From Oidiodendron maius Zn (Eukaryota; Ascomycota; Leotiomycetes; Myxotrichaceae), in assembly GCA_000827325.1 (NCBI GenBank), contig KN832873.1:820245-884244 (forward strand): DNA of 64,000 nt. The letters are read 5' to 3'. Below the pieces are notes generated by a model. That model worked only from the letters and a program-made list of their open reading frames with translations, made no database searches and was not told where the DNA came from. Shown in pieces: positions 1-22,748 of the stretch. The first letter of the stretch is position 1; the number at the start of each line of letters is the position of its first letter. A program made the position numbers and the translations under genes.

Positions 1-696
1 CCTTGTATGATTGAAATTCCCACGGGCTTCAGTGATAAATATAACCTGCCAGCGCGCAAACGATGCCAATGCGTTCGATTGCTGCCGCATTTGGCTCCCG
101 TGCTTGGTTAGGCAGACATTATCGCCCCAAACCCAATTCTAGCCCCCCGTATTGTGCCGCTTTCTGCTGCAGCATTCGTTCCACCGCCACAACGTCGAAA
201 TCTCGCGAATTAGATAACTTTGTACGTGAAAGACAGGTAGCATAAAATGAGCCAACCCTGTGAGTTTCGTACAATGTTCATAATAGATAAAATTTAAGGA
301 TAGTCGTCGACATGGGAAATTGGCAAAGTGTGGCTGCTGCTGAGACCAACCATTCCGGACGCCGCATCGGGCGGCGCCGAAAGTCTACTTGAAAGTTTCC
401 GCTCTCTTCTTTTCGATGTCTGATGCGTTGCTTATTTCCTATATATCCCATATCAGCCTTGTCACGCACATAGAGCTTTAGAAAGTATGGACGCCGTACC
501 CCATAAACGCAGCGCTCAATTCTGCTTCTACTTCTTGTCGTCATAATGTCAACAACAGGGCGTCCGCTAGCGCGCGGGCGGCGATCACAGTCTAGATTCT
601 TCTGAGAGGTTCGACTCAATGAAAAGATATTCAACTTTATATTTCTCTCTGGCTCTGCTCTCCAATTTGTGTCAGACCATATCTCGTTTATCCAAT
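1..696. other. intergenic, upstream of MFS gene
   Basis: I see no supported gene here. Short open frames on both strands lack domain character. The stretch includes the promoter of the transporter that starts at 697. An in-frame ATG at 619 would add 26 residues, but the added stretch has no homology to DHA2 N-termini, so it is treated as leader. Confidence 0.5.
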
Positions 697-2493
697 ATGG
701 CTACGGAAATTTTGACTGAGACTCTGGAAATGCAGGCAATTGTCGAAGGCGATGCGGCAGATCGCAGCCCTGAGACAATCCCAAGACGCTCTGCCCTCCA
801 ATCGGTCACTATAATCCTCGTCGTCAGTGGCGCTACATTTTTGAACTCGATGGTCAATGGCCTTCTCATTGTAGGCTTGCCAACTATAGCAAAGGATCTC
901 GAGCTAGCTTCAAATCTGATATTCTGGTAAAGTGTCACCACATTAACACCCCGACACATTACTCATTATCTCACTAGGCCGTCGTCAGTCTTCTCGTAAG
1001 TTCAACTTATATTTGGGTCAGTATTCTTTGTGCTGAGATAAACCAAAAAGACTCGCTTGTGGAAGCACTCTCCTCCTTTCCGGGTCCATAGCAGACATAC
1101 TCGGCGCACGCCCGCTCTTTCTTCTAGGCTCGGCAATATATATGCTCCTCACCCTTATCACAGGGTTCTTACAGACCGGCATTGAGCTTATCGTTTTCCG
1201 TGCCCTCCATGGCATCTCACTAGCCCTCTGCCTACCAAGTGCTGTGAGCATACTGGCAAATTCCTTGCAGCAAGGCAAGTGGCGAAACATTGGTTTCGGC
1301 GCACTAGGTGCCGGCCAACCATTAGGATTCGCAGCTGGCCTAGTAGTGAGTGGCGCACTGCTGGATTCACTAGGATGGAGGTGGGCATTTTGGATTGTGG
1401 CTGCTGTAAGTGGATTGATTACCGTCGCGGCTTTCTTCGCCTTGCCAAAGGACACCAGTAGAGCGAGTATAGCGTGGAATCAACTTCGCAAAATTGACTG
1501 GACTGGAGCAATACTATCATCCGCCAGTTTGGGACTCCTGAGTTATGTCATGGCGTATGTGGAGCCTATATCTCTCGTCGCATAGTGAGAAAGCTACTGA
1601 TAGAGAGAGCAGTATTGTTGGTCAGCCTCGATCTGAGTGGACACACTTGTCGCTCATCCTCCCCGCTTGTCTATCTGCTACCCTTGGTGCTACATTCTTC
1701 TATTGGGTCCATCGCCAAGAGAAACTCAGCAAGCCCTGCATGATCCCACTCTCCCTCTTCAAAAACCGAATATTTACCTCCATTTGTGTTGTGATATTCC
1801 TCACCTGGGCGTCTTTTAACTCGGCATCGGTACTCTTGACTCTGGTGTAAGTCTTGCTTCATATTCATTTGCCTGCTTGCCGATTAATAGCTGTCACAGA
1901 TTTCAAGACGTTCAGAATCTTTCTGCTTCTCAGACATCGCTCCGCTTTATTCCTGATGTTGTTACTGGTGTCCTCATGAACCTCGGCGTTGGTTTCTTAA
2001 TCCACAAAATGTCTACCTACTGGCTTGTTCTTGTTGCTACACTGGTCACATTAGCGGCACCGTTATTACTGGCTAGAATGGACGAAGGTTCCTCGTACTG
2101 GGTCGCGGCGTTTCCAGCAATGTGCCTGATTCCGATTTCGGCTGATGGTGAGTAGAGTCTTCTTAATAGAGCTCTGGCTAACACTATTGAACAGTGTTGT
2201 ACACCGTTTCAAATCTCGTAATATCATCCTCTTTCCCAGAAAATACACAAGGGCTAGCGGGAGGAGTCTTCAACGTTGTCGTCCAGGTTGCAAATTCAGT
2301 TGGCTTAGGCATAACTTCTATCGTAGCCACCAGCATTACTGCGTCTAAGTCTGTTTCGACACAGCCTGCATCTAAATTAATGAGCGGCTACCATGGCAGC
2401 TTCTGGGTATGTTTCGGTGGCATGGCCATTGCAAGTCTCATCAGCGGGACGACATTGAGGGGTATTGGACGAATCGGCCAGAAGAGGGATTAA
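697..2493 (+). CDS. DHA2-type MFS transporter
   Basis: Major facilitator superfamily proton antiporter of the plasma or vacuolar membrane, probably exporting drugs or a metabolite. The model is 697-926, 978-995, 1051-1554, 1586-1846, 1900-2147 and 2195-2493, giving 519 residues. The N-terminus is acidic and cytosolic. TM1 is followed by the segment SLACGSTLLLSGSIADILGA, which matches the loop 2/3 motif of the family. The antiporter motif C region reads GALGAGQPLGFAAGL. Two joints are unusual: exon 2 is only 18 nt long and intron 3 is only 31 nt, yet both keep frame and restore family sequence. The gene stands alone on the + strand, with about 1 kb to the next gene. The substrate cannot be told. 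A secondary-metabolite role is possible given the oxidoreductases at 7-10 kb, but no backbone synthase is present. Confidence 0.88.
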
Positions 2494-3542
2494 GAGTCCA
2501 ATGCAATGGAAGAAATTAGGCTTATTGTGGACTATTACACATTTTCTGGAGATATAGACAGACAGGTGGGCACTCCTAGAATAGGTATTGTGGTCATTAG
2601 CCACTACCAAGCCAAATAGATATGACTTATGTATATAGAAAAAAAAATCGTTTAAGTATATACAAACTCTAAATGGATCTTTTCTCTTACCGGTTCCGTT
2701 TTAACCTCTGGAAGTGAGTACCTGTGATAAGGGTTAGCAAACCTGAGCAGAGCCTGTGCATCCTGAGGTAAATAATATGCTAACTCCCGGAGGTCAAATA
2801 ACTAGGCCAACTGAGCTTGCTCCGTCAATCACTGAAATCGCACAACGCACGACACACTCTTGGGCTATGTATTTGAAATGAATATAATGTTAATCCGTCT
2901 AGCTAAAGGCAGAACAATTGGAAGGCAAACGCGGTTGATACTAGAGCAATGGTTGTGATCTGCCTCCGTAACCAAGCATCCTAATCACTGGTTAGTGCTA
3001 GCAGATCCTGGAACCGGAAGCAGAGCTCCGATAGAACACCGACGACACTTATAAAATGCCTGGAAGCTCTTCAGAAACCCCATACCCATTTTACAATCCA
3101 GACCATCGCCCAGGAGATGTCTGATTGACCTGAACTATATGAGCCCAGTGGTGTAGGCAGGCAATCAAAGGTCAACACATATTTTGCGAAGTTAGTGTCT
3201 GCGGCTGGGGCTTTATTTCTTTTGCAGCCTAACACAGCCCACGCCCTGCTTCTTAGGGACGGGATTTATTCTCTCCTTTCATTTGCCGCCGAGGATAGAT
3301 GATCCCACGATTCTCGTATTACTCGTCCGTTTCATGTGGTAACCTGTTATAAGCGACTTGCCCTGCTGCACATGATTCAGCTATGATGGAATCCCGCCCA
3401 AACTGGTCACCACTAGAGCTTGGCCTCAGGCCGGCTCTATACATTAATATTTGGAATCTCTTCACTTACTTTTCTTAAGACAAGGCTTTGAACAATTACC
3501 GCTTTCCAAAGCATTTGAATTTGAGACTCTGCGGTGGCAACC
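2494..3542. other. intergenic
   Basis: About 1 kb without a supported gene. It holds the 3' end of the transporter and the promoter of the caspase-GPCAT gene. No repeat, RNA gene or clear TATA element was recognised. Confidence 0.5.
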
Positions 3543-6421
3543 ATGAATGGAAAGGCAGGTGTACAAAAGTCTGCTTCGTTCAAGTTCTCCGTAGGTGATC
3601 TAGATGTTGCATCTGTTCGAACAATCCTCTCTTGGTTCCTGCTTGCCTGGATAGGACGTCGTACCATCTTTGTTTGGGGCATTTTCATACTATTCGTCCT
3701 GCTGCTCTTACTCCGTAACTCGCCAAGACCAGTTCAGCCTGGTCTACAACCCAAAGTACGCAGTGACTTTTTCAGTTTAATATCTAGTTCACGATTTACT
3801 GACATAACCTAGGGAGATGCCAATGAGCTGGACCCCAAAAGATCCATTCGTCGTCCCAATTCTGGAACTCACGACATAAAAAACACAAAACACCATACGC
3901 CTATCGCAAGTTTCGGAGCTGATCTCCATAGTGCAATTGGGGCAGCGCTACCAAGGCGTGATGAAATTAGATACTCACGTGTTATTGCGTTGCTTCTGTC
4001 CTGGGAGGACGATAATCTCGGCGTTTACAGTGAGATCAACGAACTGGAAAATGTCTTCGCGAACATATATCATTTCGATGTGGAGAAGTTTGAAATCCCT
4101 AGTCTGGAGCCAGTTATGCAAGTCAATGAGTGCATCACGGGGTTGATCAAACGGGCTGGGAAAGATACGCTCTTAATTGTATACTACGGCGGCCATGGTC
4201 GTGGAGTTGAATATTCAACTGAGGCACCGATATGGTTTCCGTAAGTACTAGGAAGCCCCTTCCTCAGCAACAGGTGTGGGATTAACTAACTCCCAACAGA
4301 AATGGTCAGAACTCATCGGTTTCCTTACCCTCTGGAGGCATTCAATGCCTGCTCGAAGAAGCATCTTCGGATGTTCTCTTGCTGTATGATTGTTGTCACT
4401 CTGCTACAGTCCCCACCTGTGGTTCAGGAAAAGGCGGAGTTACAGAAGTGATTGCGGCCTGTGGATATGAGACTACCGCATCTGAAGTGGGCGAGCACTC
4501 TTTTACGAAAGCGCTCCTCGACATTCTAATCCTTGACTCGGACTTCCCATTCTCGGTCGGCCGGCTCCATTCTCGAATCCTGAGCAATTTGAAATGCTGG
4601 TCGCCAGCAGTGAAGGAGCTTAATAGAGAGAAACTCAAGCAGTGGCAGCCGCGTAGGACTCCTGTGTATACCCTTCTCTCTGAAACTAAACCCCGTCGAA
4701 GTATTGTCTTAGGACCTCTGCCTTTGCAGAAACCATCCTCAAATAGTGCACAGGAGCATGGAACACCGACATCAACAGGCTCCACCTCAAGCACTCCTTC
4801 GACGAGTGAGAATAATAGCCCAAGCGAGAACGGGGAAGTCGATTCTGAGGGTAACAAATGTGCACAAATATTACTTGCAATCCGAGTCGATGAGACCTCT
4901 TTTGACAAGGATGAATGGGTAGAATGGATGAAGACTGTTCCTATTAATGGTCGCGAAATTCACGTCGAAGGTCGATGGGGTAGCTTCTCTACTCTTCTGT
5001 TGCTTCGAATGTCCGTTGAAATTTGGAACCTTCTTCCTGAGAACCCGGCTTACAGTTTTGTTGGATTCGTCACGACTCCCAACACCAATATCTCATTACA
5101 TCCAAGCCTACCGTCAACCCCCAATTCGGACAATGCATTTGACACTTTTGTGAACCAACACGCCATGCCCAAACCCGCTCAAGCCGTGGCACGACTCGAC
5201 GCTCCGCAGCCGCCAGGGGATATGACGGCTCGGTCAGGCTATCGAACTCTAGAGATCAAAGTCATAACTATAACCGAAGTGGCCGAAATGGCCGTAGCCG
5301 CTCTGCGGCGGTCTATATGTTCGCTGATCTTAGCCCTCCAGTCAGAAGTTCTCGTACATAGCTCCTCATCAACTTCTTCAACTCCTGAAGATGGGGAATC
5401 AAGCTCTCCATTAAGCAGGCTATCCTTCGATCGGATGTGGATGCAACAGATGCCGATGATGGAAATATACCATCGCGCGAGACTGGTGGCGGGAGTTCGT
5501 GAGATTATATACAACAATGTTGAGCAACTAAGCCAACGTTGGAATAGGACGGAAGCGATTACTCTTTGGGAGAAAGTGCTCTTCATTTGCGGTGTCTTCA
5601 ACATCCTCATCAGCGGATATATCATAGGAGGGTACCCCCAAATTTTCCATTATTGGTATACTGGGCAGCTTCTCTACCTCCTCCCTATTCGCTACTACAC
5701 CTTCTACAAACGCGATTCTCACCTTTTCCTGGCCGACCTTTGCTACGCTGTCAACATCCTCTGCATGTGCACTATTTGGTTGTGCCCTCGATCGACTCGA
5801 CTGTTCATTGGCACATACTGCCTAGCCTTCGGAAACAATGCAATCAGCATAACCATGTGGAGAAGCTTAATGGTCTTCCATAGCTTGGACAAAGTTACTA
5901 CTGTCTTCATCTACGTCATGCCCTGCGTAGCTCTGCACTGTCTAGTACATCTCATGCCGCCAGATCTCCAGCAAGAACGTTTCCCCGCCATCTGGGCTAT
6001 CAAAATGCTCGCACCAAGTCTAAGGGTGCAGGATTCTCTATTGGCAATGACAGTGTGGTCCACAGTACCGTATCTTATCTGGCAACTGGCATACTATTTC
6101 ATGGTTACAGTTCGCCAACGTGAAAAAATCGCTGCAGGAAGCCCTACGTCTTTTACCTGGCTCCGCAAAAGATATGCTCAGACGACGATCGGGAGAGTGA
6201 TGCTGTCATTGCCCGAATCTCTCCAAGAGCCAGCCTTTATGATGTTGCAGTACATTTACATATTACTTACTTGCCTCCCTTGTCTGATCTGGTTCCGGAA
6301 TCGGTACGCATCTGCCACATTTCTGATCGTAGTGTTCTTCGGGTCCGTCTATAACGGTGCGACATTCTACAGCGAGCTATTTCGCAAGCGAAACAAGAAC
6401 GAGGAGGAATCTGTGGGGTAG
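3543..6421 (+). CDS. Membrane-anchored caspase-like (C14) protein fused to GPC acyltransferase
   Basis: Exons 3543-3755, 3813-4240 and 4300-6421 give 920 residues. ATG 3543 sits in a good context (CAACCATGA). Residues 41-57 form one hydrophobic anchor. Residues about 125-320 are a caspase/metacaspase fold: the catalytic His is H199 in YYGGHG and the catalytic Cys is C246 in DCCHSA. Residues 404-472 are the extension that follows the caspase domain in many fungal C14 proteins (STLLLLRMSVEIWNLLP). From S589 to about 915 the protein matches the fungal glycerophosphocholine acyltransferase family (GPCAT, Gpc1, DUF2838), a multi-pass ER enzyme that makes lysophosphatidylcholine from GPC and acyl-CoA. 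Matching segments are VREIIYNNVEQLSQRW, FLADLCYAVNIL, VFHSLDKV (H741, D744), SFTWLRK and VYNGATFY. Caspase extension, linker and acyltransferase lie in one uninterrupted exon, so the fusion does not depend on a splice guess. Biological role is inferred only: a cell-death or membrane-remodelling protein. Confidence 0.88.
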
Positions 6422-10656: not shown

Positions 10657-13600
10657 ATGGAGGATCAGACGGGAGCAAGGGTCAATACTAAAGGCTTCAC
10701 CGTCCTTTTTGAACCAGAAAGCCCTCTCATCGAGTAGGTCTCGCTTTTCCTTGGGCGGTTTCTGCCTTGGGAGTGCTGCCACTGACCTGTTGAAGTATCG
10801 TCTTCATTCACGGATTTACCGGCGATCCTAAAGGGACGTGGACTCTGAAGAAGTGCCCCAAGCCGCCAAAAAAGCACAATCTAGAAAGTGCTGAAATTGA
10901 CCAGCGTTGTGACGCAGTCGGCTCCGCTCCATCGAAATATCTGAAACTCTTCACCAGAAGACAACCTCATCATGTGAAAGTTTCAACTTCGCAACCAAGG
11001 ATCGCTTCCGGACTGAGTAGTAGTGTAAATGAATCGTGTCGGGCAGAAGTATACTGGCCCAGAGATCTGCTACCTCAGACAGTTCCAGGTGCTCGGGTTC
11101 TCACTTACGGTTATGACACGAATGTGCGGCACTCAGCAATGGGTGTCATAAGCCAGAACACTATACACGATCACGGCTGGAACTTCTTGTGCGCATTGGA
11201 AGAATTGCGCCGTGATGAGCCCTTACGCCCGCTCCTTCTTATTTCGCACAGTTTAGGTGGCCTTATTGTGAAAGAGGCGTTGAGAAAATCTAGCGATTGG
11301 GAACTGGTCAAACCCCATCTATGCAGCATCGTGAGATCAACTGTTGGAGTGTTATTTTTTGGCACTCCACATCGTGGCGCTGACCCTCGAGGTCTTATCC
11401 ACCACGCACTAACCCAACTGGCGAAAGGTGTTGGCTTTAAATTTAACGACAGAGTTGTCGAAACCCTCATGCCTGGCGGAGAACATTTGAGAGAGATGAG
11501 AGATGAGTTTGCCGCACTAGCTCGGCAGGGACGATGGATCATCTATTGTTTTCAGGAAGAGTATGGCCTTCCTGGGCTCTTTGGCAAAAAGGTATCAACA
11601 TCATGAACAGCTTCATGTCTTGCAGCTGACTCTCAAGGTTGTTGACGATGAATCGTCCCGTCTCGATGACCCTACCATCGAAACTCCGCGGCATATTTCG
11701 AGTAACCACATGGACATGTGTCGATTCTCTGGGACCGGAGATCCAGAATATCAAAAGGTTGCTGCGGCAATTGGGCGGATACTGCGAAAACTTCCGCCGA
11801 AACTTCAACCTAGCTTGGTCAGGTTTAATAGCGCAGCGTCGAGCAATTTTGCTGACCCCCGTATATCAGACATCTCACCACAATGGAGCTGCACTGAGAA
11901 TAACAAGATGGATAATTTCGGTCCCATTACAAAATTCAGTGACAGTGATCAAACCGGCGCACGACAAAATTTGATAAATCTTTTGCATTTTGACCAGATA
12001 GACGCCCGACTTATGACATTGAAAACTGCAGAGGCAAAAACCTGCCAGTGGTTTCTCCGCAAGCTCGAATACACAGGTTGGATGGACGCAGAGAAATTGC
12101 AAGAACATCATGGATTCCTGTGGATTAAGGGGAAACCTGGTGCTGGAAAATCGATATTGATGAAGTTTCTTTTCTCGGAGGCAAAGGAATCAGCTAAGTC
12201 AATTCCAAACGCCATGGTAATCTCATTCTTCTTCAACGCGCGGGGTGATCATCTGGAGATGTCAACCGTGGGTCTTTATCGATCTCTCTTATTACAGATA
12301 TTCGAGAAAGCACCAGATTTACGAGGCGTTTTAGATGGACTCGACTACAATGCTCAACGCCTAATTCAAGAGCATGGATGGCAAATCGAAATCCTCAAAG
12401 AGATATTAGCCAAAGCTGTCGGGGCCTTAGGGAACCGAACCTTAACATGTTTCATTGACGCTCTGGATGAAGGTAACGAAGATCAGGTTGCGGATATGAT
12501 CTCATTCTTTGAAGAAATTGGAGAAAACGCTGCGGATACCAATACTCGCTTGCATATATGCCTTGCAAGCCGCCATTACCCAACAATTATTGTTCAGAGA
12601 GGGTTTGAAGTGGTTCTAGAAGATGAAAAGGAACATGCGGCGGATATCACCCGTTATATCAAGTCAAAACTGAGACTGGGCAATTCAAATCAGGCAGAGG
12701 CTCTAAGATCTGATATACTGGAGAAATCTGCGGGAATTTTTCTCTGGGTTGCCCTGGTCATCCAAATCCTGAATAAAGAATATGCCAAAGGCCATGTCGG
12801 TGCTCTTCGACACCGCCTGAAGGACATCCCACAAGACTTAGACGAGCTATTCGAGATGATCCTCACGAGGGACTGCGAGAATATGCAGGAGCTTCGGCTA
12901 TGCACTCAGTGGGTCCTCTTCGCGATGCGCCCCTTGAAGCCAGAGGAGCTTTACTTCGCAGTTCACATTGGGCTTGGCCAAAGCACTTTGACATCTTGGG
13001 ATACAGATAGTATTTCCTCCGACGACATGCATCGGTTTGTGCACAGCTCTTCTAAAGGCCTAGCGGAGGTTACCAAATCTAGAACCCCCGCCGTTCAATT
13101 TATCCACGAATCTGTCCGCGACTTCCTCCTTCTCAAGGATGGTAAAAGGAAGCTATGGCCTACGTTTGGTGAGCAGTTTGCGGGCCATAGCCAAGAGACC
13201 CTCAAAAATTGCTGCTTAGCACAGATTGATGCTGTTCAAGATATCAATCTTCCCTTGACTGACCGTGGTGACTTAAAGAAAAACATCCAAATCAAATATC
13301 CGTTCCTAGATTACGCTACAACAAATGTCCTTTTACACTCAAACCAAGCACAGAGAGTCGGAGTTGCGCAGAATACTTTTATTACTACCTTTCCCTTGCA
13401 GCATTGGATCAGGCTAAGCAACTTTTTCGAGAAATTCCAAGCCCGGCGCTACACAGACCAAGCAAGTCTTCTCTACATCCTGGCAGAGCTCAATTGCGCA
13501 AGTCTGATCAAAGTTCATCCACGAGCACCTGACCACTTCGATATACAAGGCGAACGTTACACCTACCCTTTCATTGCGGCAGTAGTGCTTAGGAATGAAG

Positions 13601-14760
13601 ATGCAATTCGAGAACTCATACATGCCATTCTGCCAAATCAGCCAGACGCTTTGATGCATCTCCGTGGCGCTCTTGATGGTTTTCCGCACGGAAGGGATTT
13701 CCGATGTCGCAAAGATCATGAGTTATTCTCCTTTCTTGTTGACTTCAACCATGAGGGCATATTTCGATACGCCCTCGAGACATACCCGGTCGAGATCGAG
13801 TTGACGGATAAGAACCGACGGACACCACTGTCATGGGCTGCAGAAAGGGGGCGTGAGGTGGTGGCCAATCTGCTGCTAGCACGCCCTGAGGTCGATGCCG
13901 ACTCGAAGGACCGCTCTGAACGGACACCTCTATCGTGGGCTGCACAGTGGGGGCATGGGGCAGTGGTTAAGCTACTGCTCGAGAAGGGCGCTGAGCTGGA
14001 GTCCAAGGACAGTTCTAGTCAGACGCCGCTCTCGTGGGCTGCAGAACATGGGTACGAGGCAGTAGTAAAGCTGCTACTCGAGAAAGGCGCTGAGCTGGAG
14101 TCCAAGGACAATTCCGGTAAGACGCCGCTATCGTGGTCTGCATTCCGGGGGCATAAGGCAGTGGTTAAGCTACTGCTCGAGCAGGGTGCTGAGCTGGAGT
14201 CCAAGGACAATTCTAGTCAGACGCCGCTCTCGTGGGCTGCAGAACATGGGTACCAGGCAGTAGTAAAGCTGCTACTCGAGAAAGGCGCTGAGCTGGAGTC
14301 CAAGGACGATTCCGGTAGGACGCCTCTATCGTTAGCTATACATCAGGGGTATGAGGCAGTGGTTAAGCTACTGCTCGAGGAGGGCGCTGAGCTAGAGTCC
14401 AAGGACAATTCTAGTCAGACGCCTCTATCGTTGGCTGCATTCCATGGGTATGAGGCAGTAGTAAAGCTGCTACTCGAGAAGGGCGCTGAGCTGGAGTCCA
14501 AGGACGATTCCGGTCGGACACCGCTATCTTGGGCTACACGCGGCGGTGACGAGGCAGTGGTAAAGCTACTGCTCGAGAAGGGCGCTGAGCTGGAGTCCAA
14601 GGACAATGCCGGTAGGACACCTCTATCGTTGGCTGTACAGTGGAGGCATGAGGCAGTGGTAAAGGTACTGCTCGAGAAGGGTGCCGAACTAGAGTCTAAG
14701 GACAATTCCGTAGGACACCACTATTGTTGGCTAAAGAGCGGGGGAATAAGGCAATGGTAA
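10657..14760 (+). CDS. NLR: alpha/beta-hydrolase (lipase-like)-NACHT-ankyrin protein
   Basis: Fungal NOD-like receptor of about 1,330 residues. Exons are 10657-10733, 10796-11591 and 11626 (or 11638)-14760; both acceptors of the second intron (34 or 46 nt) keep frame. Domains in order: an esterase/lipase-like domain of the type seen at NLR N-termini (oxyanion region IVFIHGFTGDPKGTW, nucleophile S178 in ISHSLGG, FFGTPHRGA); a NACHT NTPase with Walker A GKPGAGKS near residue 460 and Walker B LTCFIDALDEG near 562-572; and nine intact ankyrin repeats from 13810. In known fungal NLRs the C-terminal repeats sense a ligand, NACHT oligomerises, and the N-terminal domain acts as effector, often in non-self recognition or cell death. 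The repeats are nearly identical to each other. The frame shifts in the tenth repeat, so the protein ends at 14760 with about 20 non-ankyrin residues, while repeat DNA runs on to 15025. Confidence 0.88.
13810..14697 (+). repeat. Tandem 99-bp ankyrin-repeat array
   Basis: Nine coding units: the first is 96 bp, the other eight are exactly 99 bp, starting at 13906, 14005, 14104, 14203, 14302, 14401, 14500 and 14599. Each later unit carries the framework TPLS, AVVKLLLEKGAELES and KD. Nucleotide identity between units is very high, including long shared runs around the AVVKLLLEKGAELESKD segment, which points to recent duplication or gene conversion. Differences cluster in the helix-1 and turn positions between TPLS and AVVK (for example WAAEHGY, WSAFRGH, LAIHQGY, WATRGGD). 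Confidence 0.92.
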
Positions 14761-15025
14761 AGCTGCTACTAGAGAAGGTTGCTTAACTAGAGTTAAAAAA
14801 CAGTTCTGGTCAGATGCCACTATCTTTGGCTGTGCTTTGGGGCATGATGTAGTGGTAAAGCTGCTACTCGAGAAGGGTGCCGAACTGGAATCTCAGGACA
14901 GTAATGGTTGGACGGTGCTGTCGAGGGCCTCTGAGCGGGCAGAGAAAATACAGCCGTCGCCACTCTTGGCAAGAGACCGCTACAACAAGATGTTAAAACT
15001 ACTTGATACGGGTGAACAACAATAG
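14698..15025 (+). pseudogene. Decayed ankyrin units beyond the NLR stop
   Basis: Three further repeat units follow the ninth intact one but are no longer joined in one frame. The tenth has lost one base near 14710 (ATTCCGTAGG where sister units read ATTCCGGTAGG) and then carries a TAA where sisters have a sense codon. The eleventh and the final unit keep recognisable ankyrin sequence (VVVKLLLEKGAELES) and end with a normal-looking tail, terminating at 15025. The ancestral protein therefore probably extended to 15025. Confidence 0.75.
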
Positions 15026-18987: not shown

Positions 18988-21288
18988 CTACCTGGGTGCA
19001 GGAGGCTGCTGGTCCTGAGGGGGCTCGTCATAATCATTTCGTCCATAGAGGTTTGCAGCTCTCCATTCCGCAGTGTCTCTCTTGATCGAGTCAAGGTAAT
19101 CCCGGAAAGAGCGGCTCATAGATAAGACTCTCTCGAAATGATCCTTCTCGACCTTGATGGGTTCTCCCTCGACGTAATCTTGGTCTTCCTTTGCCTCGAA
19201 TTGCGCCAATGCGATTGCGGTCTGCAGAGCGTTACGAATCTCTCGTCCATTAAGTTTTATCTTCAGATCTTTTGAGTCTTGCATGACGTATGTCTTCGCG
19301 CTTGGACTGAGTCTAATCTGCCCGCCTGTGTCAGTGCGCATCTTGTCAAGGAAGCCTTGCCAGATCTCGCGACGCTTATTGTCGTCAAGCTGAGGATATC
19401 CAATGACAACATGGACACGGGACATGAATGCTTCGTCAATGTGCCCCACTCGGTTAGTGGTGAGGAAGAGAAGGCCACTGAAGTACTCCATCTTGCGGAG
19501 AAATGCTACACATATCCCAAGTCAATGCAGCGCGTCAAATCACGAGGAAAGCAGACTTACCGGAAACGATTCCATTCCGAGCAAGATCCGTATGCTTCCT
19601 GCGCTCAAGAAATATATCGGCTTCGTCGATTAAAAGGACGGCTTTCCACCTCTCGGCAAGGTAAAACCAAGAGGAGAGCTCGTTCTCAATCTTGTCTTCC
19701 TTCGTACCGATATCAGCGATGGTCAGCGCAAGAAGCGGTCGCCCAGTGGCAGCTGCAGTACATTCTACATTCCAAAATTAGCTTCATGCCAAAATAAGTT
19801 AACATTCTCATTCCTCTGACTTACCTACTGAAAACGTTTTGCCAACGCCCGGGGGACCTAGGATTCCAAGTTAGGATATTCGTCAAGCAATAATGTGGCA
19901 TGAACATACCATGAAGAAGAATGATGACGCCTTTGCCCTTATCCTTGATGGAATCTGCAGACCATGCTGGCTGCGGACTTAACTGGCTAGACGAGAGAGA
20001 CTTGATGATCTGGAGATGCGATTGCTCCATGACCAGTTTTGTTGGAGTTTTATTCACCTCCATTTCGTGCAGTCTCTCAATATGGGCGGAATCTGGAGAA
20101 GGATAATTAGCACATATTATATTCTCAACCTGCACTAGTCGAGGCAGTCGGCAACTTACACCAGGATTTGATGTCATGCGCGTAGCATGGAATGTCCGGG
20201 CTTAGCAAAAAACATTGATCTTTGGTGAGCTTGGAGGGGTCATCGCCGTCAAGCTTGAGCAGCTCTGCCAGCTTTGAAAGGCGTTGACTCGATTCGTTAG
20301 GGCCGCCGGTTCTGGATTGTCGATTATTTATCCACAGGTCATCTTTCAGCCTCTCGTCCATACCCCACGTCCAGAGTGTATCTGCATCACTCGAGACCTG
20401 GAGGTCTCGACTATCATCTACAATGACTCGACCGTGATACGTTCGCCTCGTCTTTTCAAGTGACTCTCCTTTATAGTTCATCTGCTTGTACCCACTTTGC
20501 AATAACTTCACCTTCTTCAAGCCCCTCGCTTCGAATTGATCACGTCGAGCCCCGCCGTCTATAGCGTCCCAATACTCCCTCGGGATCACGCTAAGAGATG
20601 TGACATCTTGTTCTCCTTCGAAGCGATGGATAACGTGCTTTCCTTTCTCTCCTGATTCTGTATAGCCGCGAAACAACCCAGCATTATAGTCAAGGAACCA
20701 CACAAGGATGTTCCATTTAGTTATTTTCTTGGAGGATCTCTCTTCTTTCCCTTTGACACGCATGATAATAGCTCCTATCCACTCCTTGTCGTATTGGCAA
20801 TAAACGAAGGTTCCGGGCTTCAGGAGGTACCAGAGCGTATCGAATGTGATGGTGGGGACCTTCTTCTGAAGTCGGCGCTGAATGGGAGGTATCAATCTGT
20901 CAACTTGCGGCCGGATAAAGTCGAGCAACACCTTCAGATGGTCCGCCTGTTCTTGGGCGGCAATTTTCTCTTCGTCATTCTCTGAGGACCCGGAAGGGTC
21001 GGATAATTTCGCATGCAACCTTTTCAGCTCCTTTTCATGGTGAACGAGAACCCAGTACGGCTCGTGGATGATCACTACATCACCCGTGAGATTTTGGTTC
21101 GGGTAGTAATCAACAGCCTCTCTGATGACTTCAAGTAGAGGATGAGAGTGGATATCTATTCTTGTCTCAGTCACTTCGGTAATCTTGAGATGCTCCAGCT
21201 TAAGCGGCTCTTCCTCTGGAGGTGTTGTAAGCTCAGGAGATGGCTCGTCATGCTTCATCCCAAATATTTCAAGGTGCATAGCATCCAT
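18988..21288 (-). CDS. AAA+ ATPase with DUF7025-type N-terminal domain
   Basis: 688 residues from exons 21288-20160, 20092-19910, 19857-19825, 19764-19561 and 19505-18988 (introns 67, 52, 60 and 55 nt). ATG 21288 is the first in-frame ATG of the open stretch. The N-terminal about 250 residues match the fungal DUF7025 module (TFDTLWYLLKPGTFVYCQYD, WNILVWFLDYNAGLFRG). The ATPase core has Walker A GPPGVGKT (438-445), Walker B LLIDEAD (D495, E496), the sensor segment FLTTNRVGHIDEAFMSRVHV with an arginine-finger-like Arg, and a C-terminal helical lid. The Walker A motif is carried almost wholly by a 33-nt micro-exon. Such ATPases are numerous in filamentous fungi; they resemble Bcs1/proteasomal-type AAA proteins but their substrates are unknown. 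It is divergent from the gene at 21357, with 68 bp between starts. Confidence 0.9.
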
Positions 21289-21356
21289 TTTTTCCCCCGC
21301 GGTCGTCAAGGTACGATGCCTTTCAACTCGATGGAGATTGGAGCTAACCGAGAGAT
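21289..21356. promoter_or_regulatory. 68-bp divergent gap between AAA and DUF7708-type genes
   Basis: This is the whole space between two opposite start codons, too short for two independent fungal promoters and 5' UTRs. The transcripts must overlap, or one start lies further in. A 10-codon upstream frame begins at the ATG near 21334 and ends in the ATGA that overlaps the + strand start. Confidence 0.55.
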
Positions 21357-22748
21357 ATGAAGGCAACGGTCACTCATGAAAAGATTGCCAGTGAAATATC
21401 AAGCGGTTTCGACGAGATCGCAGACCAAGTGCGCTCCTTCTACTTTGTGGTCAAGCTCCACCCTCGATCGACGTATATCAAGTACTATATTGCAATATTT
21501 TACTTCGAAGTATTTCAGTTTCTCGTAAGTATCATGCGGGAATGGTACCAGTCGTCCTGGAAGCGCTTTTCGAAGTCCCTTGGCAACTCTTTCTTAGAGA
21601 ATACCGTGCAGGGGACACTGAACACTCTGGCCTTGTACACCAAGAGAGTCGAGGCAGAGGATACGCGCAGGACAAAAGATATGAATACCAAACAACTTTT
21701 TGCTTTGGGTGCGATGTTACAAGCGGGTCTCGCAGGTATCGCGGGCCAAGAAAAGATGCAAAGGGATATCAAGAGAGACTACGCCAATTTGTATACCTAT
21801 GTCAAGAAAGATCTCCCCGCCAAGATTGTGCAGGAGGTACTGAAAGATGGAGCTCTCAACACGAGTCAGATCATGCCTCCCCCTCCCCGGCCAGCTATCA
21901 TGGCGCGGTCAATCGATGGTCCGGGATTATCTGGTGCAGAACCAGTCGCTCGCCTCAGAGGGATCCCATCTTGGTCAAGGGACAGTATCCTGACCGACGT
22001 CGATCACTTGAAGCCATATGTACAAACCGCGGAGCATGTATACCGGTTAATAGAACGCAGCCATTCAGTTGCCGTCAGCACAGAGATCAGCGTCCGCATC
22101 CACCAATGGGTCATGAACACTTCCTCCGAAGCTCTCTGGATCGAAGGACCAAGCGGACCTGCTCAGCCGAGCCAAAGCACCCTCACATCTGCCTTCATTC
22201 TAGGAAACTTGCGTCGGGTGGTAATACCCGCCATAATAGAATTCTGTCAGTATGACCCAAGGTTCTGGAGGACTTGGAATGCCGAAAAAGAGCTTCTCAA
22301 TGTCATATACGCCCTTGTGTATCAGGCTGCGAAGATGGTTTCTGAGAGATTAGAGCCCGAACTCGTCCCTTTCGAATTTCCCTCCTCTCGCTTTCAGGCA
22401 TTAAACGGAAATGTTGAGACGCTTCCAGATGCCATCAAGCTCCTCTCGGATCTGATCGCTGTTGGGCCGCCGCTGCAATTCCTCCTCATTGACGGCCTGC
22501 AACTATTCGATGGGCGTCAGCTAAGTCCGCTTGTGCAGAAGAGTATGAAGGATCTCGTTGCATTATTATGCAAGGCTGTAGCGGATGCTTCCGGAGGGCA
22601 GAGAGTGTTCAAGGTTCTTTTCACCACAGACGGTCTTGTAGGAGAACTCGCAGATGCGGCGAACGCAAAGCTTCTAAGTCGCCAGATACAAGAGAGTGAG
22701 AATGAGGATGAATTATTGACCATAAAGGACATCGATTTGATCAGATGA
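21357..22748 (+). CDS. STAND-like protein with partial DUF7708-type N-terminus
   Basis: Single exon of 463 residues. It resembles a Pezizomycotina family whose members carry an N-terminal DUF7708 helical domain and a C-terminal NTPase-like domain with a degenerate P-loop. Here the P-loop position reads WIEGPSGPAQPSQSTL, lacking the Gly-Lys-Ser/Thr of Walker A, and the Walker-B-like strand reads FLLIDGLQLFDGRQ. The family sequence starts only about half-way through the expected DUF7708 helices, so the N-terminus looks shortened, or a 5' exon has been missed inside the neighbouring AAA gene. Members are often found among NLR-like and heterokaryon-incompatibility genes, but function is unknown. 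Family assignment is from recalled pattern similarity. Confidence 0.65.
   Translation: MKATVTHEKIASEISSGFDEIADQVRSFYFVVKLHPRSTYIKYYIAIFYFEVFQFLVSIMREWYQSSWKRFSKSLGNSFLENTVQGTLNTLALYTKRVEAEDTRRTKDMNTKQLFALGAMLQAGLAGIAGQEKMQRDIKRDYANLYTYVKKDLPAKIVQEVLKDGALNTSQIMPPPPRPAIMARSIDGPGLSGAEPVARLRGIPSWSRDSILTDVDHLKPYVQTAEHVYRLIERSHSVAVSTEISVRIHQWVMNTSSEALWIEGPSGPAQPSQSTLTSAFILGNLRRVVIPAIIEFCQYDPRFWRTWNAEKELLNVIYALVYQAAKMVSERLEPELVPFEFPSSRFQALNGNVETLPDAIKLLSDLIAVGPPLQFLLIDGLQLFDGRQLSPLVQKSMKDLVALLCKAVADASGGQRVFKVLFTTDGLVGELADAANAKLLSRQIQESENEDELLTIKDIDLIR

Follow-up and report, generated by a model that had tools for sequence, protein, structure and literature searches.

The window analysed here, a stretch of 64,000 nucleotides from Oidiodendron maius Zn, holds a gene in which the frame of a caspase-like protease continues into that of a GPC1-type glycerophosphocholine acyltransferase, and this fusion frame is very probably genuine. 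At the DNA level the fusion is supported by a single reading frame and by one long exon in which the catalytic Cys is followed by the linker and by all of the DUF2838 half. We tentatively propose that the product is one membrane protein made of an anchored caspase-like protease, a Ser/Pro-rich linker and a GPC1-type acyltransferase, with the protease controlling the acyltransferase in cis; taken as a whole, mechanism included, this proposal is possible rather than probable. To our knowledge, the substrates of fungal caspase-like proteases are largely unknown. If the gene gives one protein, such a protease would be tied to one defined membrane-lipid enzyme, and the presence of both in the same protein would provide a directly testable substrate.

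Gene structure and reading frame

A rebuilt splice model with three exons and two GT..AG introns gives 920 residues and a stop codon at 3543-6421 of the forward strand (Table 1). With its standard splice signals, the model reproduces the single gene of 920 residues that a preliminary description of this DNA had placed there. An in-frame TGA is found at 3522, 5' of the ATG. Exon 3 has no stop in the proposed frame, against 32, 31, 32, 20 and 41 in the five other frames, which bears out the uninterrupted exon of about 2.1 kb that had been said to carry extension, linker and acyltransferase. Its 706 open codons begin ahead of the catalytic Cys and run through the entire acyltransferase half (P ~4e-15 at its base composition), and for 150 open codons around the linker P is ~9e-4. 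A loose rule for hidden introns in exon 3 returned eight candidate pairs, which start at 4487 or 6304 and of which three preserve the frame; none was returned within 4657-6303, and thus none at the junction.

Coding signals differ along the gene. The proposed frame has the best codon score of the six in exons 1 and 2, in the part of exon 3 that encodes the protease, and in the linker, the scores being small; in the GPCAT part one reverse frame beats it (0.06 vs 0.03), which counts against our main reading. The periodicity of exon 2 was reached by 4 of 1000 shuffles and that of the GPCAT part by none of 1000. Periodicity was weak in the linker (5201-5449, reached by 135 of 1000 shuffles), in the extension (4901-5200, 77 of 1000) and in the protease stretch 4301-4900 (134 of 1000), and this also speaks against the main reading. 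Since the coding signal of the linker is weak when taken alone, coding through the junction rests on the open frame. A chimeric assembly was considered and rejected, as G+C is 0.454-0.492 across 3-7 kb without a break, a test of composition only and not at the level of reads. That the fusion is no artefact of the gene model is likely, not proven. On the reverse strand, an open frame of 187 codons (4399-4959) lies over the protease part and is probably due to chance.

Table 1. Features of the fusion gene (positions in the window)
Feature	Position	Strand	Residues	Description	Basis
Exon 1	3543-3755	+	1-71	Hydrophobic stretch 41-59 at 3663-3719, likely membrane anchor	Splice model, hydropathy
Intron 1	3756-3812	+		57 nt, GT..AG; in-frame stop if retained (frame ends 3812)	
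Exon 2	3813-4240	+		Start of caspase-like domain; His199 at 4194-4196	Splice model, Peptidase_C14 profile
Intron 2	4241-4299	+		59 nt, GTAAGT..CAG; stop if retained (frame ends 4244)	
Exon 3	4300-6421	+		Remaining protease, extension, linker, acyltransferase, stop codon; single open frame	
DCCHS motif	4388-4402	+		Cys246 at 4394-4396	
Extension	4844-5068	+	396-470	Without Pfam or fold match	
Linker	5069-5437	+	471-593	Ser/Pro-rich stretches	
GPC1/GPCAT-like domain	5438-6418	+	594-920	Multi-pass	
PF10998 DUF2838	5570-5899	+	638-747		Profile match

Protease half

The catalytic pair occurs in the order GHG then DxC, with H199 within YYGGHGRG and C246 within YDCCHSA. Pfam Peptidase_C14 matches residues 146-247 with E 0.0037 and 17.4 bits, under its gathering score of 21.4; exon 2 by itself gave E 0.001 and 19.2 bits, also under that score. 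The Cys-bearing stretch of exon 3 (4301-5200), searched by itself, had no caspase profile match, a result against the main reading. Further matches were obtained with Raptor_N of Pfam (E 0.0071, 16.6/27 bits), with the NCBIfam model caspase_w_EACC1 on the 234-residue domain (E 4.7e-6, 26.2/140 bits), which spans 146-290 and so extends beyond the Cys, and with the PADLOC caspase model (E 4.4e-5), while the PHROGs profiles had no match for the protease domain. No curated caspase-family cut-off was reached in Pfam or NCBIfam, and for this reason we name the domain caspase-like, not caspase. Given caspase-named models in three libraries together with GHG and DCCHS in order, this is a fair name for a domain that is, judged by its sequence, divergent. 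The C14 caspase-like domain of the preliminary description keeps its pair, H199 and C246, and its motifs, with profile scores below every curated cut-off.

In PDB, phmmer searches to E 10 with the whole protein and with the protease domain found no solved caspase, which likewise counts against the main reading. The sole match of the whole protein to E 10, a DUF3317 transmembrane protein (E 0.53), was taken as chance, as were the ligase matches of the protease domain (E 1.2 and 1.3). Two further NCBIfam matches, one to a sugar-porter model (residues 4-55, E 0.0068) and one to a primosomal model (E 0.29), were also judged to be due to chance. Asp244, two residues before the Cys, belongs to a DxC-H-S motif that is presumably of metacaspase type, and it suggests a specificity for Lys/Arg rather than Asp. 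According to the available excerpt of PMC7885106, metacaspases cleave after Lys/Arg and are activated by Ca2+.

Residues 396-470, which correspond to what the preliminary description called the usual fungal caspase extension, had no match in Pfam. An 80-residue single-sequence model of the extension (pLDDT 65), compared with PDB folds, gave 39 matches to E 10, the best at E 2.3, and none was accepted. We assume that this segment resembles a block seen C-terminal to the catalytic domain in fungal C14 proteins. The linker that follows also contains Lys/Arg sites.

Acyltransferase half and membrane topology

Membership in the GPC1/GPCAT family, assigned from DUF2838, is certain at the level of sequence. 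Indeed, Pfam PF10998 (DUF2838) matches residues 638-747 with E 1.4e-37 and 128.7 bits, against a gathering score of 25.2, over 110 of 111 profile positions. Profile searches for Peptidase_C14 and DUF2838 had been proposed as a check on the fusion, and their outcome is mixed, well above gathering for the second and below it for the first. In the available part of PMC5122774, Asp24 and Ile362 bound the plant GPCAT core, and DUF2838 occupies 68-174 within it; applying the same offset of 44 residues between core start and DUF2838, we placed the start of the core here at 594. The conserved core of the family has about 340 residues. C-terminal to DUF2838 there are 173 residues, against 188 in the plant core (PMC5122774, excerpt), and, judged by length only, the core seems whole or lacks little at the C-terminus. 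Earlier, a complete multi-pass GPCAT/Gpc1 domain had been set at 589-915; DUF2838 and several hydrophobic stretches agree with this, completeness is a matter of length only and our bounds are 594-920. The single-sequence structure model of this half has a mean pLDDT of 45. A comparison with a GPC1 segment that does not come from a database and serves as a lead only gave 83 identical positions of 128, and the DUF2838 score was 129-131 bits here vs 164 for that segment. Residue 752 is a Tyr (FIYVMPC, 5912-5914, forward strand) and is one of the mismatches. Gpc1 acylates glycerophosphocholine; in yeast it is ER-localized and its loss leads to bilayer stress (PMC10331479 and PMC10790099, excerpts).

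Hydropathy showed a clear and strong hydrophobic stretch at 41-59, the likely N-terminal membrane anchor noted earlier, and five separate strong ones in 640-903; the GPCAT family is described with eight predicted transmembrane helices. A net charge of +4 on each side of 41-59 (1-40 and 60-121) favours neither cytosol nor lumen for the protease. There are four N-glycosylation sequons (218, 385, 477 and 629).

Comparison with known systems

What appears to be new is that two familiar types of protein are combined. The Gpc1/GPCAT proteins (PF10998) of yeast, Candida and plants have in common with the present one DUF2838, a similar core length and several hydrophobic stretches. Described members have one defined domain in the available text of PMC5122774 and PMC13027849, and the yeast Gpc1 core begins near residue 110 (PMC10790099, excerpt), whereas here about 590 residues, including the protease, precede it. 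The His/Cys dyad is shared with fungal type I metacaspases (Yca1, MoMca1/2). In these, a Q/N-rich prodomain precedes a C14 domain that forms the C-terminal part, and the two M. oryzae proteins are 396 and 410 residues long (PMC7885106, excerpt). The present protein departs from this layout, since residues 1-121 comprise an anchor and a basic stretch and are not Q/N-rich; moreover, the protease is trailed by 565 residues that include the acyltransferase. Fungal CHAT or S8 protease receptors controlling gasdermins likewise join a protease to another module in a setting of regulated death, but they include NLR, WD40, TPR or ANK modules and are encoded in clusters with gasdermin genes, as far as the available text of PMC12881547 describes them.

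Pattern searches gave 7, 3, 0 and 3 matches in viral_contigs and 24 in genome_contigs, none of them a confirmed relative; since these collections are viral and prokaryotic, this null result is uninformative on recurrence in fungi. Searches of the open-licence literature found no caspase-like/GPCAT fusion of such architecture, no co-mention of DUF2838 with words that begin with caspase, and none of caspase with glycerophosphocholine acyltransferase in a fungal context, in line with the lack of a described precedent in the preliminary description. In the parts of that literature available as text there was no fused or protease-controlled GPCAT, and co-mentions of glycerophosphocholine and metacaspase were off-topic as judged by titles and the beginnings of abstracts. 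Of the fungal C14 proteins that are extended at the C-terminus, we know of none with an acyltransferase. Annotated fungal proteomes may well contain the same architecture without its having been noticed.

Proposed working and alternatives

For our main reading we counted the single frame with the dyad, DUF2838, the caspase models of three libraries and the codon scores, and also the NLR-like gene nearby, the Colletotrichum enrichment (both below) and the localization and bilayer stress of yeast Gpc1. An N-terminally anchored, perhaps metacaspase-like protease would be joined by the linker to a GPC1-type acyltransferase in one chain, and by analogy with yeast Gpc1 the fusion may be located in the endomembrane system. 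Control in cis is suggested by the fact that the protease shares its chain with a glycerophosphocholine acyltransferase. Once triggered, the protease might control the attached enzyme by cutting the Lys/Arg-containing linker, or it might cut neighbours in the same membrane, and the rebuilding of phosphatidylcholine from glycerophosphocholine could thereby be switched in a stress or nonself/cell-death response. A cell-death or membrane-repair switch, as put forward in the first description of the gene, would be compatible with the data.

The main alternative is a serious one, which we nevertheless hold to be somewhat unlikely: the fusion would be real, and its acyltransferase half a decayed or co-opted GPC1 acting as a multi-pass anchor or a lipid sensor and not as an enzyme. 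Its DUF2838 score, below that of the comparison segment, may indicate a more divergent domain, and fewer residues follow DUF2838 than in the plant core. Moreover, fungal GPC1 presumably has a His after 'HSLDKVTxxFI', where the corresponding residue here is Tyr752, and this lead goes against the main reading. However, the frame of the domain is intact throughout, which together with the identity to the comparison segment argues for ongoing selection, and a protein with an anchor at 41-59 already has a means of attachment. As regards the His, the argument is a lead only, because the comparison segment does not come from a database and the Gpc1 active site is not known according to the available text of PMC10790099.

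It seems unlikely that the fusion is recent or due to chance, with no joint function and with both halves keeping their ancestral jobs. Such an origin would agree with the single instance seen here and with viral and prokaryotic collections that gave no confirmed relative; the open frame across about 120 linker residues nevertheless fits a translated join, which is not proof of joint function. Less likely still is that the locus gives rise to two products, namely a transcript for the protease and a free acyltransferase made through an internal promoter or start, with the long protein minor or absent. Because the in-frame Met593, 595, 598, 600 and 601 stand where the GPCAT core begins, an internal start would yield the whole domain, and hence a free acyltransferase could still be made; CCAAT boxes at 5085 and 5121 and a pyrimidine run at 5029 lie upstream of these Mets. 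On the other hand, the halves are not separated by a stop, the junction contains no candidate intron, and 4700-5500 is without a TATA-like or AATAAA element, the latter being a weak point since the main start has no TATA-like element either.

Genomic surroundings

An MFS transporter gene lies upstream of the fusion gene, and a GMC oxidoreductase and a short-chain dehydrogenase are encoded downstream on the opposite strand. An NLR-like gene (10794-14900, forward strand), 4.4 kb downstream, combines an NPHP3_N ATPase, DUF7791 and ankyrin repeats, and has a weak alpha/beta-hydrolase match under cut-off (E 0.0012). In a Colletotrichum, isolate-specific genes are enriched in caspase (8), NACHT (8) and ankyrin (17) Pfams (PMC5915685, excerpt). 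A more far-reaching version of our proposal can be formulated, in which the caspase-like protease, which might act under the NLR-like gene nearby, would when activated free or destroy its own glycerophosphocholine acyltransferase, leading to phosphatidylcholine repair or to membrane failure in a nonself/virus response; we regard it as improbable. Gasdermin models at E 0.01 had no match among the 30 ORF stretches scanned, in a window with 102 ORFs of at least 110 codons. From the same 30 stretches we infer that the fusion gene's side of the window is an accessory stretch; past ~23 kb there are several housekeeping-type ORFs (Snf7, SAPS, RhoGEF, TOG). AAA+ lid_13 and DUF7025 were found in adjacent ORFs at 18991-21369 of the reverse strand, perhaps parts of one fungal AAA+ ATPase gene. 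The ankyrin array of the NLR-like gene (13923-14900) consists of 9.9 copies of a 99-bp unit with 78% matches, and its repeats are perhaps a sign of recent repeat turnover.
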